The notes beneath the pieces are model-generated. The model was given only the letters and a program-made list of their open reading frames with translations, was not told the DNA's origin and did not search any database. A stretch of 61,751 bases of DNA from Vasconcelosia minhoensis LEGE 07310 (lineage in GTDB: Bacteria > Cyanobacteriota > Cyanobacteriia > Phormidesmidales > Phormidesmidaceae), in contig NZ_JADEXG010000027.1 in NCBI RefSeq assembly GCF_015207255.1, forward strand, positions 1 through 61,751. Reading direction: 5' to 3'. Shown piece by piece: positions 28,943-34,189 of the stretch. Positions within the stretch are counted from its first letter, which is position 1, and each line of letters opens with the position of its first letter. Made by a program: the position numbers and the translations under genes.

Positions 28943-30568
28943 TTAGAAGTTGAAAGTACTACGTAGCACTCCATACAGAGCATCGCCGAAGCCATCCCCA
29001 GGCTGGTTAGGATCGCTGTAGATAACAGCGGGCGTGAGCGTGAAGAACTCATTCAGGCCAATCTCGTAGTAAACCTCAGCCACATACGGATTACGATCAA
29101 TCGTATCCAATGCTCCATCGGGGAAAATGGGCGAACGGCCATAGTAACCGCCGAGGGTGTTGCCAGCTCCAAGGAAATCAGAGATAGAAATACCGCCCAT
29201 CCATGAGTCGGTTTCTCCATCGTCAAGGTCGATGTAGGAGTAGTAACCGCCAACCTCGAAGTTGCCAAAGTTGAGGCTGACCAAACCGGCAGCAGTGTAG
29301 TCAATCCCTTCTTGGTCTCCGTCAATGTAGGTGGCCGCCACGTTGAACGGACCAACATCTAAGAGGTTGAGCTGCGCAATGTAGCTGTAGTTCTCGAAGA
29401 TGCCTTCATTCGGGTTGTCAGAGTCATCCGTCGCGTAGCCTAAGTCAAGGATGAGGTTGTCGGTAAAGGCAAAGTTTACACCGGCAGCAAATGAAGAACC
29501 GCCAGAGAAGATGTCGTAGAACTGAGGACCGCCAAAATCAGCCACTGATGGACCGTCAAACGGCACAATGGTGCTGGTGACGAAGTCGTCAGTCGTGATA
29601 CTGTTCGCCGCAATGATAGCGCTGATGCGGCTGCCGATTGGGAAGCTGTAATAGACGTCGTTGAGTGCGACGTTATCTTCCCCACTGGCAGCATCTTCAG
29701 AAAAGATCGAGCTGCTACTGCCACCACCGTTCGCCAAGCCACCAGGAACCGCTGTCAGGCCCGTCTGCCCGCTATTGGCCTGCAGGCGAATCCGCAGCCG
29801 GTCTTCGCCGGTAAAGCTAGTGTCAAAGTTCAGCCGAGCTCGATAGTCAAAGGTGACTTCCTCGTCTTGGGGATCTTCCCCTGGCAGCCCCTGAACAATT
29901 GGCTCATCAATCGGGACGATTAGGTGAGCATCCAACTGACCGCGCAGCTTGGTGGTGGTTGAAAACTGGTTAGCTTCCAGCTCCGCGACGTCAGCCTCAA
30001 TCGTGTCCACCCGACCGCGCAGAGTCGCCAGCTCAGCTGCAAACTCTTCCTGCAACCGACGAATGGTGTCGAGGTCGCCATCGGGGCCAATCAGCTGCAC
30101 CACCACGTCCAGGCACGCATTCAAACCAGCGGCAAACTCATAGCGGGTCAGCGCCCGGTTGCCGCGGTAGGTGCGGTCGGGGTAGCCTTCAATACAGCCG
30201 TACTCTTCGACCAATCGCTGTAGGGCGGTGTAGGCCCAGTCGGAAGGCTGGACGTCAGACAGCTCAGAAACGCTGGTTACCTGAGCCAGCTGAACCGGCT
30301 CGTTGCTCAGCGCTTCAACGCTGACCGGAGCAGTCGAAGCGGGCGCTTCAGCTGGGGCGTTGGCGCTAGCCAGCTCGGTCGGGGCAGCAATAGGCTCTGC
30401 TGCTGGCTTGTCAGCCGACTTCTCAGCATCGTCGAGGCTGACAGAATCAGCATTTAATAGGGAATCAAGGCTTGCTGGCTCAGCCGCTAGAGCGCTTCCT
30501 GAGAAGGCTAGGGCTGCACCGAGGGCTGCCGGGTAAACGAGCAGCGTTCTCCAAAACATTTTCGTCAT
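28943..30568 (-). CDS. SLH-domain OprB-type outer membrane porin, intact copy
   Basis: From the ATG at 30568 (MTKMFWRTLLVYPAAL) a 541-residue protein with a signal peptide (about 1-28, ending ALAAEP), an acidic/Ala-Pro spacer, an SLH domain (SELSDVQPSDWAYTALQRLV, CIEGYPDRTYRGNRALTRYE) that binds peptidoglycan-linked polymer, a short coiled coil (DTIRRLQEEFAAELATLRGR), and a beta-barrel of the OprB family ending STFNF, with C-terminal Phe as in outer membrane proteins. Such proteins are the main cyanobacterial porins, often annotated as iron-uptake or solute porins. An upstream in-frame ATG at 30667 is unlikely. It is 97-99% alike to the damaged copy that follows. Confidence 0.93.
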   Translation of the reverse strand: MTKMFWRTLLVYPAALGAALAFSGSALAAEPASLDSLLNADSVSLDDAEKSADKPAAEPIAAPTELASANAPAEAPASTAPVSVEALSNEPVQLAQVTSVSELSDVQPSDWAYTALQRLVEEYGCIEGYPDRTYRGNRALTRYEFAAGLNACLDVVVQLIGPDGDLDTIRRLQEEFAAELATLRGRVDTIEADVAELEANQFSTTTKLRGQLDAHLIVPIDEPIVQGLPGEDPQDEEVTFDYRARLNFDTSFTGEDRLRIRLQANSGQTGLTAVPGGLANGGGSSSSIFSEDAASGEDNVALNDVYYSFPIGSRISAIIAANSITTDDFVTSTIVPFDGPSVADFGGPQFYDIFSGGSSFAAGVNFAFTDNLILDLGYATDDSDNPNEGIFENYSYIAQLNLLDVGPFNVAATYIDGDQEGIDYTAAGLVSLNFGNFEVGGYYSYIDLDDGETDSWMGGISISDFLGAGNTLGGYYGRSPIFPDGALDTIDRNPYVAEVYYEIGLNEFFTLTPAVIYSDPNQPGDGFGDALYGVLRSTFNF

Positions 30569-30714
30569 TGTATTTTCCTCACACCTTAATAAATTAAGAC
30601 CAAACCTTTGGTTGGTCTGACAGATAGACCCCGAATTCCAACTTATCTCCGGAGTTATAAATGACACTAGTAGATTCCACTCAGATGAAATAGAACATAG
30701 ATTACATTTATAAA

Positions 30715-30887: not shown

Positions 30888-32509
30888 TTAGAAGCGGAAA
30901 GTACTACGTAGCACTCCATACAGAGCATCGCCGAAGCCATCCCCAGGCTGGTTAGGATCGCTGTAGATAACAGCGGGCGTGAGCGTGAAGAACTCATTCA
31001 GGCCAATCTCGTAGTAAACCTCAGCCACATACGGATTACGATCAATCGTATCCAATGCTCCATCGGGGAAAATGGGCGAACGGCCATAGTAACCGCCGAG
31101 GGTGTTGCCAGCTCCAAGGAAATCAGAGATAGAAATACCGCCCATCCATGAGTCGGTTTCTCCATCGTCAAGGTCGATGTAGGAGTAGTAACCCCCAACC
31201 TCGAAGTTGCCAAAGTTGAGGCTGACCAAACCGGCAGCAGTGTAGTCAATCCCTTCTTGGTCTCCGTCAATGTAGGTGGCCGCCACGTTGAACGGACCAA
31301 CATCTAAGAGGTTGAGCTGCGCAATGTAGCTGTAGTTCTCGAAGATGCCTTCATTCGGGTTGTCAGAGTCATCCGTCGCGTAGCCTAAGTCAAGGATGAG
31401 GTTGTCGGTAAAGGCAAAGTTTACACCGGCAGCAAATGAAGAACCGCCAGAGAAGATGTCGTAGAACTGAGGACCGCCAAAATCAGCCACTGATGGACCG
31501 TCAAACGGCACAATGGTGCTGGTGACGAAGTCGTCAGTCGTGATACTGTTCGCCGCAATGATAGCGCTGATGCGGCTGCCGATTGGGAAGCTGTAATAGA
31601 CGTCGTTGAGTGCAACGTTATCTTCCCCGGAGCATCTTCAGAAAAGATCGAGCTGTTACTACCACCACCGTTCGCCAAGCCACCAGGAACCGCTGTCAGG
31701 CCCGTCTGCCCGCTATTGGCCTGCAGGCGAATCCGCAGCCGGTCTTCGCCGGTAAAGCTAGTGTCAAAGTTCAACCGAGCTCGATAGTCAAAGGTGACTT
31801 CCTCGTCTTGGGGATCTTCCCCTGGCAGCCCCTGAACAATTGGCTCATCAATCGGGACAATTAGGTGAGCATCCAACTGACCGCGCAGCTTGGTGGTGGT
31901 TGAGAACTGGTTAGCTTCCAGCTCCGCGACGTCAGCCTCAATCGTGTCCACCCGACCGCGCAGAGTCGCCAGCTCAGCTGCAAACTCTTCCTGCAACCGA
32001 CGAATGGTGTCGAGGTCGCCATCGGGGCCAATCAGCTGCACCACCACGTCCAGGCACGCATTCAAACCAGCGGCAAACTCATAGCGGGTCAGCGCCCGGT
32101 TGCCGCGGTAGGTGCGGTCGGGGTAGCCTTCAATACAGCCGTACTCTTCGACCAGTCGCTGTAGGGCGGTGTAGGCCCAGTCGGAAGGCTGGACGTCAGA
32201 CAGCTCAGAAACGCTGGTTACCTGAGCCAGCTGAACCGGCTCGTTGCTCAGCGCTTCAACGCTGACCGGAGCAGTCGAAGCGGGCGCTTCAGCTGGGGCG
32301 TTGGCGCTAGCCAGCTCGGTCGGGGCAGCAATAGGCTCTGCTGCTGGCTTGTCAGCCGACTTCTCAGCATCGTCGAGGCTGACAGAATCAGCATTTAATA
32401 GGGAATCAAGGCTTGCTGGCTCAGCCGCTAGAGCGCTTCCTGAGAAGGCTAGGGCTGCACCGAGGGCTGCCGGGTAAACGAGCAGCGTTCTCCAAAACAT
32501 TTTCGTCAT
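30888..32509 (-). pseudogene. SLH/OprB porin, second copy with 4-base deletion
   Basis: The ATG at 32509 starts a copy nearly identical to the intact porin gene (1622 against 1626 bases). Near 31628-31632 the copy reads TTCCCCGGAGCATC where the intact copy has TTCCCCACTGGCAGCATC, a loss of four bases. This shifts the frame after IFSEDAP, and the N-terminal piece stops at 31421, while the C-terminal half stays open in the other frame (30888-31511) and ends STFRF. As sequenced it makes a truncated protein without the barrel end. It might be a genuine pseudogene, an assembly or read error, or a switchable allele repaired by conversion from its neighbour. Confidence 0.85.
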
Positions 32510-32868: not shown

Positions 32869-32932
32869 TAAAAAGCTATCCGCTCCCATCCAGGAAAAAC
32901 ACTTGGGTAAAGCGCTTTGGGGATGGGAGCGG
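32869..32932 (-). terminator. Terminator of the unit after ycf39
   Basis: CCGCTCCCATCC and GGATGGGAGCGG (32880-32891 and 32921-32932) pair over 12 bp, and on the minus strand the stem is followed by ATAGCTTTTTAAAG. The 29-base loop contains a smaller AAAGCGCTTT palindrome. This gives the transcription direction of the structured unit as leftward. Confidence 0.85.
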
Positions 32933-33015
32933 TCTAGCGGGTCTTCAGGTTGAAACCAGACTGCCGGAAGGAACTCTAGCAAACACCGGTTTCAAATGAT
33001 ATTGAAGCCAGTTCC

Positions 33016-33087
33016 CTAGAGAACAGCCCCGGCTCGCAGCCGGACTACATCAACCTGGAGACCCATGCATTTACAACTATCTGACAT
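33016..33087 (-). CDS. Candidate 23-residue small protein or leader peptide
   Basis: The minus strand has an exceptionally good ribosome site, AAGGAGGTGAT, an 11-base match to the 16S anti-Shine-Dalgarno, 8 bases before the ATG at 33087. The frame begins MSDSCKCMGLQVDVV, has a C-x-C motif, and ends LRAGAVL with TAG at 33016-33018. An in-frame ATG two codons upstream lies too close to the ribosome site. The second half is inside the closing stem of the folded RNA, so translation and folding would compete, as in attenuator leaders. No family is recognised. The alternative is that it is a fortuitous frame in an ncRNA. Confidence 0.5.
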   Translation of the reverse strand: MSDSCKCMGLQVDVVRLRAGAVL

Positions 33088-33226
33088 GGGCATCACCTCC
33101 TTGATCCTAAACGGTCTTCCTGTAAAGGGATGAACAGCTTTCTGCTCACGAGTCCCACCTTAGCACAAAGTTCAAAACCTGTGGAGGGGTTGGCAAGCTC
33201 AGTCCGTCCATTTATAAGGAAAAGCT

Positions 33227-34189
33227 TTAGAAGGGTACCTTCTTTTTCTTAGCCTTATCCCGTTCATAATCCAGCTCTTTGAGCTTTTTCATAATCCGGG
33301 TAAAGTACTCTTTGAGATAGGCCTCTAGCGTTGTAATTTCCTTGGGGTCGATGCCGAACGCCGGGTAGACCTCGTCCATAGGAGCAGTCAAAGGCTCGCC
33401 ACTGGCGCTGACTTCGCTAAACGCTAGCCGGTCGGAGAGGTCCCAACCCCATTGAAAAAACCGAGCCAGCTTGCGCACGCCCCGGAGCAGTCCTAGAGGC
33501 ATTTGAGACACTTTTGCATCTTGTCCAGATAGGCGCTCACAAAGCCGAACGATTTCATAAGCGCCCCAAGCTCGGCTACCGGCAAGCGGATAGGTCGCAT
33601 TGGCGGTTTTGGGCTGCCTTAAAGCCTGAACCGCGAACCGGGCAATATCTTGGGTATTCATGTAGGCTACCGGAGCGGCATCGCCCATGACCCAAACGGC
33701 TTGCTTCTCCAAAACAGGGATAGCATACTGGCTGATTAGCCCCTGCAGGAAGCCGCAGGGGCGCAAGATAGTGTAGTCTAGCCCCGACTCTGCTAGGAAC
33801 TTCTCGGTGCAGTGCTTAACGTCCATCAGGGGGACATGGGGATATTTTTCAGCGTCGAGGATGGAAAAGAAGACAAAGCGCTCGACTCCAGCCTTCTTCG
33901 CTGCCTGAATGAGTGAGACTTTGCCCTGCCAATCGACCGCATAGACGCCACCTGCCTCGGCAGGTCGGGACGTGGCCGCGTCGATCACTGCGGTTGCGCC
34001 TTCTAGCGCGGGTGGCAGGGTCTCGGGTTTGCAAAGGTCACCTCGAACGAGCTGGGCTCCCCACTCCCTCAAGAAACTCGCGCGTTGAAAACTCCGGACG
34101 AGGCAGCGCACTTCGTAGCCTTCATCTAAGGCCCGGCGGACAACTTGCCTTCCCAAGGTGCCAGTTGCACCCACGACTAATAAAACCAT
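33227..34189 (-). CDS. ycf39: Ycf39, photosystem II assembly SDR-like protein
   Basis: Ycf39 is an atypical short-chain dehydrogenase/NmrA-like protein that helps deliver chlorophyll to newly made D1 in a complex with high-light-inducible proteins. The 320-residue protein starts MVLLVVGATGTLGRQVVRRA with the NAD(P)-binding GxxGxxG motif, has RCLVRSFQRASFLREWGA, TSRPAEAGGVYAVDWQGKVS, VFFSILDAEKYPHVPLMDVK and ILRPCGFLQGLISQYAIPVL, and a basic Lys-rich C-terminus. Length and sequence match the family. petM lies upstream on the same strand, 133 bp away, and an RNA/small ORF unit follows. Confidence 0.96.
   Translation of the reverse strand: MVLLVVGATGTLGRQVVRRALDEGYEVRCLVRSFQRASFLREWGAQLVRGDLCKPETLPPALEGATAVIDAATSRPAEAGGVYAVDWQGKVSLIQAAKKAGVERFVFFSILDAEKYPHVPLMDVKHCTEKFLAESGLDYTILRPCGFLQGLISQYAIPVLEKQAVWVMGDAAPVAYMNTQDIARFAVQALRQPKTANATYPLAGSRAWGAYEIVRLCERLSGQDAKVSQMPLGLLRGVRKLARFFQWGWDLSDRLAFSEVSASGEPLTAPMDEVYPAFGIDPKEITTLEAYLKEYFTRIMKKLKELDYERDKAKKKKVPF

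Follow-up and report, generated by a model that had tools for sequence, protein, structure and literature searches.

The window, by which we mean the whole 61,751-nt stretch of Vasconcelosia minhoensis LEGE 07310 DNA that was analyzed, carries a small-RNA unit on its minus strand (about 32870-33167). The unit consists of a promoter-like element, a Shine-Dalgarno sequence, a 23-codon ORF, a long helix, and a strong terminator (Table 1). A sequence-only reading had placed a Shine-Dalgarno sequence, a 23-residue ORF, a closing stem of 14 out of 15 pairs, and a strong terminator here, and each of these is found at that place on the minus strand. The closing stem is formed by GGGTCTCCAGGTTGA (33064-33050) and TCAACCTGAAGACCC (32953-32939). 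Six bases separate its right arm from the terminator stem, in which 12 bp form between 32932-32921 and 32891-32880, and a T-run follows at 32874-32870. The Shine-Dalgarno sequence lies 124 bp past the upstream gene, whose product we take to be Ycf39; NCBIfam places this product with SDR/epimerase relatives alone, below the cut-offs. A search of the genome found a single copy of the unit.

Table 1. Features of the small-RNA unit and its neighbors in the window.
Feature	Position	Strand	Basis
Upstream gene, 320-aa SDR-like protein (presumably ycf39)	33227..34189	-	upstream of the unit in some close relatives only
Candidate own promoter, extended -10-like element TGTGCTAAGGT	33157..33167	-	sequence; weak copy of the relatives' TGTGyTATnnT
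Possible 5' hairpin GAGCAG-AAAG-CTGTTC	33132..33147	-	by eye only, window and relatives
ACCGTTTAGG motif before the Shine-Dalgarno	33106..33115	-	recurs in relatives
Extended, perfect Shine-Dalgarno AAGGAGGTGAT	33092..33102	-	sequence
23-codon ORF MSDSCKCMGLQVDVVRLRAGAVL (ATG 33087-33085, stop TAG 33018-33016)	33016..33087	-	ORF list and relatives
Long helix, left arm (codon 8 third base to codon 20)	33028..33064	-	covariation, 52 sequences
Left-arm segments	GGG 33064-33062; AGGTTGA 33056-33050; TCCGGCT 33044-33038; GCCGGG 33033-33028	-	covariation
Inner hairpin CTGG..CCGG between the arms	32986..33011	-	fold; length and sequence vary among relatives
Long helix, right arm	32939..32968	-	covariation, 52 sequences
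Right-arm segments	TCCGGC 32968-32963; AGTC-GGT 32962-32955; TCAA-CCT 32953-32947; CCC 32941-32939	-	covariation
Conserved GCTA-GACCGC..GCGGATAG terminator	32870..32938	-	sequence and relatives; motif used in the scan of named genomes
Downstream iron-uptake porin, two ORFs, frame change near 31500	30888..32509	-	NF033921 por_somb, 251 bits (cut-off 100)

The unit appears to be a free-standing transcription unit of its own, with a promoter-like element at one end and a terminator at the other. A general sigma-70 scan did not list the TGTGCTAAGGT site. Of 73 representatives among the relatives, 64 have a TG.TA...T element 45-110 nt before the Shine-Dalgarno sequence, whereas mononucleotide shuffles have it in 7.3 on average; this pattern was picked after the sequences had been inspected. 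The motif ACCGTTTAGG, in a loose form, is present in 49 of the 73 (a raw count that carries no control for the motif).

No RNA family had been recognized in the sequence-only reading, and Rfam agrees with it. At the gathering cut-off, Rfam 15 matched just two tRNAs elsewhere in the window; for the small-RNA stretch it returned only two sub-threshold matches (E 1.2 and 7.2), and for 20 copies from relatives it returned none. The identity of the unit with 6S RNA (RF00013) was rejected, as the single match of that family in the genome lies on another contig (C59). Dinucleotide shuffles of the 251-nt strand fold at -79.1 kcal/mol (sd 5.41), whereas the strand itself is predicted to reach -105.1 kcal/mol (z -4.80), and 0 of 200 shuffles fold as well.

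We used an alignment of 52 of 73 reference sequences, selected by eye (A1), to look at the conservation of the fold. In this alignment RNAalifold predicts one long composite helix of 23 pairs that contains much of the ORF in its left arm. Two-sided changes occur in 16 of the 23 pairs (7.1 in shuffles), and the covariation score is 0.289 (0.191 shuffled). The fraction of paired cells is 97.4% versus 92.6% in shuffles, a percentage inflated by the prediction of the helix on the alignment used for counting. None of 500 shuffles attains any of the five measures, a test that the relatedness of the sequences makes look stronger than it is. When one partner is slid by 1-3 columns, only 19-58% of cells are left paired. 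The alignment thus supports the proposal that this RNA is structured, that its small ORF lies half inside the closing helix, and that compensatory changes have preserved the fold.

Two further hairpins had been proposed inside this stem. The CTGG..CCGG hairpin is present in the predicted fold and is variable among relatives. The local CCGGC/GCCGG hairpin pairs in 96.9% of A1 cells, and it is less well supported than the long-range pairing of its left strand: the long-range column pair 77-211 has seven two-sided changes and the local pair 77-89 has none. A hairpin at the start codon (GCCCAUG/CAUGGGU) was also considered as a second covarying state and rejected; 93.7% of its cells are paired, shuffles equal it in 107-342 of 500 cases, and it is conserved without covariation. 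In one relative (L047), a single base has been lost within the left arm. Lastly, two conserved and mostly unpaired stretches (A1 columns 92-103 and 191-200, approximately 33027-33016 and 32977-32968 in the window) form the two sides of an internal loop, with GCUGUUCUCUAG around the stop codon on one side and GAGUUCCU before the right arm on the other. This loop is a possible binding site.

Copies of the unit are found in most of the cyanobacterial genomes searched. A DNA search of 95 genomes, including that of V. minhoensis itself, gives 79 with a match at E<=1e-5 (92 are tallied at E<=1, probable chance matches included), and two blocks stand out as conserved, the ORF and the sequence leading up to the terminator. 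When named genomes were scanned for the terminator motif alone, at least 116 loci were found, which lean to Nostocales and to the exact motif; all of the 80 titles listed are cyanobacterial. An automatic rule detects a Shine-Dalgarno sequence and an ATG-initiated ORF of 12-34 codons upstream of the motif in 110 of these at least 116 loci; the other six have a GTG start (3), a weaker Shine-Dalgarno sequence (1), or are cut by a contig end (2). In assembling the loci for comparison, we excluded a duplicate of the window (L001), one match judged false (L051), and two loci cut by contig ends (L097 and L157), added by hand five that the automatic rule had missed (L045, L056, L075, L128, and L161), and reinstated L044 and L048 despite their absent terminator motif. 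In these last two, the ORF and helix are kept and the GCTAGACCGC..GCGGATAG terminator is absent; another inverted repeat with T-runs replaces it about 180-230 nt past the Shine-Dalgarno sequence and is followed by a convergent gene.

Of 388 genomes in the class, covariance model R1 matches 308, in 144 of 157 genera, at E<=0.001. The sequence-only reading had held that a lack of conservation in relatives would mark the unit as chance; stem pairing and open frame are both conserved, and a chance structure can be rejected because the unit recurs across genomes. Eighty of the 388 genomes have no match, and among the 20 of these that were listed, 4 belong to the family of V. minhoensis itself (all drafts), 6 to family f2, 6 to family f16, and 4 to others. 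A genome that we take to be Gloeobacter violaceus carries the unit in a diverged form (E 1.6e-16), in which the ORF reads MSIPGTSLNLRTANGRLCAGAVAL. Small genomes of family f2, probably marine picocyanobacteria, give weak matches (E 1.7e-6 to 7.3e-5 in the seven examined), in which the ORF has 17 codons and ends in AENAG or AENVG. This diverged form (L211-L217, L235, and L213; MSSSCLTQGLLIAENAG and similar) also has a different terminator. The presence of a porin downstream in L215 and L217 and of psbD upstream in L213 supports the homology of the f2 copies. Three genomes (G057, G145, and G071) have no convincing match (E 1.33, 4.76, and 0.28). In a draw of 146 genomes from across the phylum, 59 match, of which one lies outside the class (G450; 45 nt, 25.6 bits) and is taken as chance. 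With the window's own sequence as the query, blastn found nothing among the phage (50,697) and plasmid (72,556) records searched. Judging from this distribution, the family, shared with Gloeobacter, appears to be very old.

We examined the genes around the unit, with PsbD, PCD (4a-hydroxytetrahydrobiopterin dehydratase), and porin named by NCBIfam. Upstream sequence of 700 nt or more is available for 91 loci, and the upstream gene is psbD in 45 (counted when it ends within 650 nt), ycf39 in 6, cobB in 1, and none of these in 39; cobB is additionally upstream in L201 and L202. The suggestion that the unit encodes a small partner protein for Ycf39 therefore loses its footing, as ycf39 is upstream in so few loci and the Cys-x-Cys motif of the peptide is not conserved (see below). 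Downstream, PCD and porin follow the small RNA across much of the sampled phylum. In loci such as L013, L149, L167, and L057, PCD starts 14-38 nt after the terminator. In the window itself, the porin is split into ORFs 31421-32509 and 30888-31511 (minus strand), and the frame change near 31500 could be due to a pseudogene or to a sequencing error. A second, similar iron-uptake porin in tandem (28943-30667, minus strand) is one uninterrupted 574-aa ORF. We also asked if the RNA pairs with the start regions of these genes and rejected this: duplex energies are at the level of 20 mononucleotide shuffles per locus, with a mean z of +0.32 over 117 loci for the porin and of -0.35 over 78 loci for PCD.

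This neighborhood bears on a reading that we judge unlikely, in which the unit acts in cis as a leader peptide with an attenuator and its terminator controls read-through into PCD and porin. The synteny expected of a cis-acting leader is present: among the 144 loci whose downstream sequence extends for 1600 nt or more, PCD and porin follow in 74, the porin only in 39, and PCD only in 10, so that one or both are on the same strand in 123 loci, and on the opposite strand in none. The porin is retained even in the two diverged picocyanobacterium-like genomes mentioned above. Furthermore, in 19 of 90 PCD loci the PCD start codon lies 14-60 nt past the second T of the T-run, which leaves little room for a promoter and makes read-through the likely source of PCD expression there. 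However, PCD is up to 1187 nt away in other loci, and 21 of the 144 loci have neither gene, so that no regulated gene is always found downstream. In 13 of these 21 (14 if the longer ORF of L056 is counted), the first ORF of at least 150 aa, called mechanically, is on the opposite strand, and the unit thus stands alone. In addition, the sequence of the terminator stem varies, and in an unsystematic look no alternative partner for it was noticed. Of the earlier proposal of a leader peptide, then, read-through into PCD holds as likely in some lineages, but the unit persists without a fixed neighbor, including beside a next gene on the opposite strand.

The ORF is also widely maintained. Across 158 loci it has 23 codons in 141, 24 in 12, 17 in 3, 16 in 1, and 27 in 1; the 16-, 17-, and 27-codon ORFs are those of the Synechococcus elongatus-like genomes and L042 (17 codons), L047 (16), and L043 (27). 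In the S. elongatus-like case, the TGA lies inside a 4-nt bulge ahead of the last helix. The peptides of relatives resemble MIESSKCMGHQVAVSRLCAGAVL or MQDSSKCMGLQVEVSRLCAGAVL. Among 160 distinct elements, the start codon is ATG in 157 and GTG in 3 (the ORF rule required ATG, and the three GTG loci were added by hand), and the stop codon is TAA in 90, TAG in 67, and TGA in 3. The distance from the ATG to GGGT is 23 in 147 elements, 26 in 10, 29 in 1, and 32 in 2; all 13 length variants thus differ by multiples of three, although they fall in an AGT-rich stretch in which triplet slippage could mimic the keeping of a frame. The evidence on frame comes from these distances alone, since GGGT-to-stop is in frame by definition; stop-to-terminator distances fall in all three classes modulo 3 (55, 63, and 40).

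At the level of codons, we analyzed 61 representative ORFs that have 23 codons. Their entropies at codon positions 1, 2, and 3 are 0.79, 0.91, and 0.64 in codons 2-8; 0.58, 0.89, and 0.89 in codons 9-15; and 0.23, 0.21, and 0.43 in the paired codons 16-23, where the third position is somewhat freer. The freer third positions that would signal selection on amino acids are absent from codons 2-8, a result confined to these unpaired codons. The Cys-x-Cys motif that had been singled out in the V. minhoensis peptide is not conserved, with codon 5 being Ser in 52 of 61 ORFs and codon 7 being Cys in 19, and we reject a metal-binding CxC peptide. Together, the frame-multiple variants and the third positions that are no freer argue that an open frame is kept while its letters are more constrained than its amino acids. 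The open frame and the shape of the RNA seem to be conserved more than the peptide.

These data also make it quite improbable that the unit exists for a functional 23-residue micropeptide and that the RNA structure merely tunes its translation. The frame is kept open, and residues 17-23 (LCAGAVL) hardly vary: Leu17 and Ala19 are present in 61 of 61 ORFs and Gly20 in 60. But these constant residues overlap the covarying helices; codon 18, which is in an unpaired bulge, encodes Cys in 48 ORFs and Arg in 11; Ser4 and Ser5 are encoded by AGT in 54 and 52 of 61, respectively; and some relatives stop after 16-17 codons, ahead of residues 17-23. Most improbable to us is a purely structural sRNA with an incidental ORF, in which the Shine-Dalgarno-like stretch has another role, for example in ribosome or protein binding. 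Nucleotide-level constraint does dominate, and 65 of 74 representatives have an exact GGAGGTGAT within the Shine-Dalgarno sequence. Against this reading, all length variants before the helix are multiples of three, the start codon in the retained elements changes to GTG only, and all three stop codons occur.

We instead favor an account in which the unit is the single V. minhoensis copy of a published free-standing sRNA, with an ORF inside a covarying helix and an RNA of two states; our confidence in this account as a whole is even. We infer that the ORF is translated, that its translation gates the helix, and that the RNA has a role in trans. Codons 8-20 form one arm of the helix and the stretch before the terminator the other, and the RNA would exist with its helix either open or closed. 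A ribosome translating the ORF would open the helix and free the 3' arm, with its conserved UUCCUyCCGGCAGUC, for other contacts; with the ORF untranslated, or with the ribosome staying near the start, the helix would close. A ribosome on a start codon covers a limited stretch of mRNA beyond it. Given that the helix starts at +24 from the start codon, an initiating ribosome could occupy the Shine-Dalgarno sequence without opening the helix, and it would be elongation that has to open it. Translation itself would then count for more than the exact peptide.

We propose this gating mechanism tentatively, with rather less than even confidence. A translation-gated RNA with a lasting neighborhood, and with read-through in some lineages, would be the simplest reading of the data. 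It is possible, though somewhat doubtful, that the family goes further and constitutes a near-universal cyanobacterial RNA that reports the state of translation, in which ribosome loading at the Shine-Dalgarno sequence toggles between the closed and open forms. The open form might then act in trans or hold ribosomes, and the sequence of the peptide would hardly matter. If this is true, coding itself would be the sensor. The anatomy makes a direct test possible, as the start codon, the helix, and the compensating arm can be mutated separately.

A comparison with known systems places the unit among described RNAs. Leader-peptide attenuators are a general class of regulatory elements that share with the unit a short ORF, a strong Shine-Dalgarno sequence, a structured RNA, a terminator, and co-oriented downstream genes (in the 123 of 144 loci above). 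They differ from it in that the unit persists without a co-oriented downstream gene and has no runs of codons for a single amino acid. The Yfr2 family (PMC2662882) resembles the unit as an abundant and conserved cyanobacterial RNA with likely read-through downstream in some cases. However, Yfr2a is described in the passages concerned as about 80 nt long with a single stem bearing a 12-nt loop, and the Rfam match is absent here.

The closest counterparts are two RNAs whose transcript, abundance, and predicted peptide have been published by others (PMC4734099, PMC6091082). The first is ncl0160 of Synechocystis sp. PCC 6803, an sRNA present across the phylum that was described by Brenes-Alvarez et al. 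in 2016 (PMC4734099), with 83 homologs and a predicted peptide of 23-25 aa after a ribosome binding site; the homologs start with ATG or GTG and stop with TAA (47), TAG (34), or TGA (2). The likeness is close: our relatives also have mainly 23- or 24-codon ORFs after a Shine-Dalgarno sequence, mostly with ATG and with few GTG starts, and use all three stops in the same order, TAA > TAG > TGA. The passages on ncl0160 in PMC4734099 contain no covariation counts for an ORF-containing helix and no Gloeobacter or picocyanobacterial forms. The second is Sye_sRNA1 of Synechococcus elongatus UTEX 2973 (PMC6091082), a very abundant RNA of about 200 nt with the counterparts TU475 (in 6803) and TU2045 (in 6714). 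It is described as a widely conserved structured RNA with psbD or cobB upstream in most homologs, and the start site of somA is 2714 nt after its own (about 2.7 kb). Some relatives share these positions: psbD precedes the unit in 45 and cobB in 1 of the 91 loci counted above. In a genome that is presumably S. elongatus, psbD is upstream and PCD and two porins are downstream, and the ATG of the second porin, which would be somA, lies on the same strand 2741 nt after the Shine-Dalgarno sequence, compared to the published 2714 nt between start sites. Sye_sRNA1 differs in that it is treated as an sRNA, with no peptide mentioned in the passages concerned of PMC6091082. In addition, ycf39 is the upstream gene in our window, and in S. 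elongatus the ORF is 17 codons long. Passages of five further papers (PMC5126843, PMC2662882, PMC5386190, PMC5295598, and PMC3610870) hold nothing more on this family.

Matched by features and gene positions alone, the V. minhoensis unit very probably belongs to the same family as ncl0160 and Sye_sRNA1, both of which share its wide cyanobacterial conservation and conserved secondary structure. The link between the three is one that we draw here. The family is thus already in print, and the sequence-only reading's suggestion of a new regulatory RNA gives way to a known one that Rfam lacks. What the comparison adds is that a published RNA with a peptide and another regarded as an sRNA are joined, under their two names, to one anatomy, that covariation supports a helix containing the ORF, and that the family extends to Gloeobacter and to probable marine picocyanobacteria.
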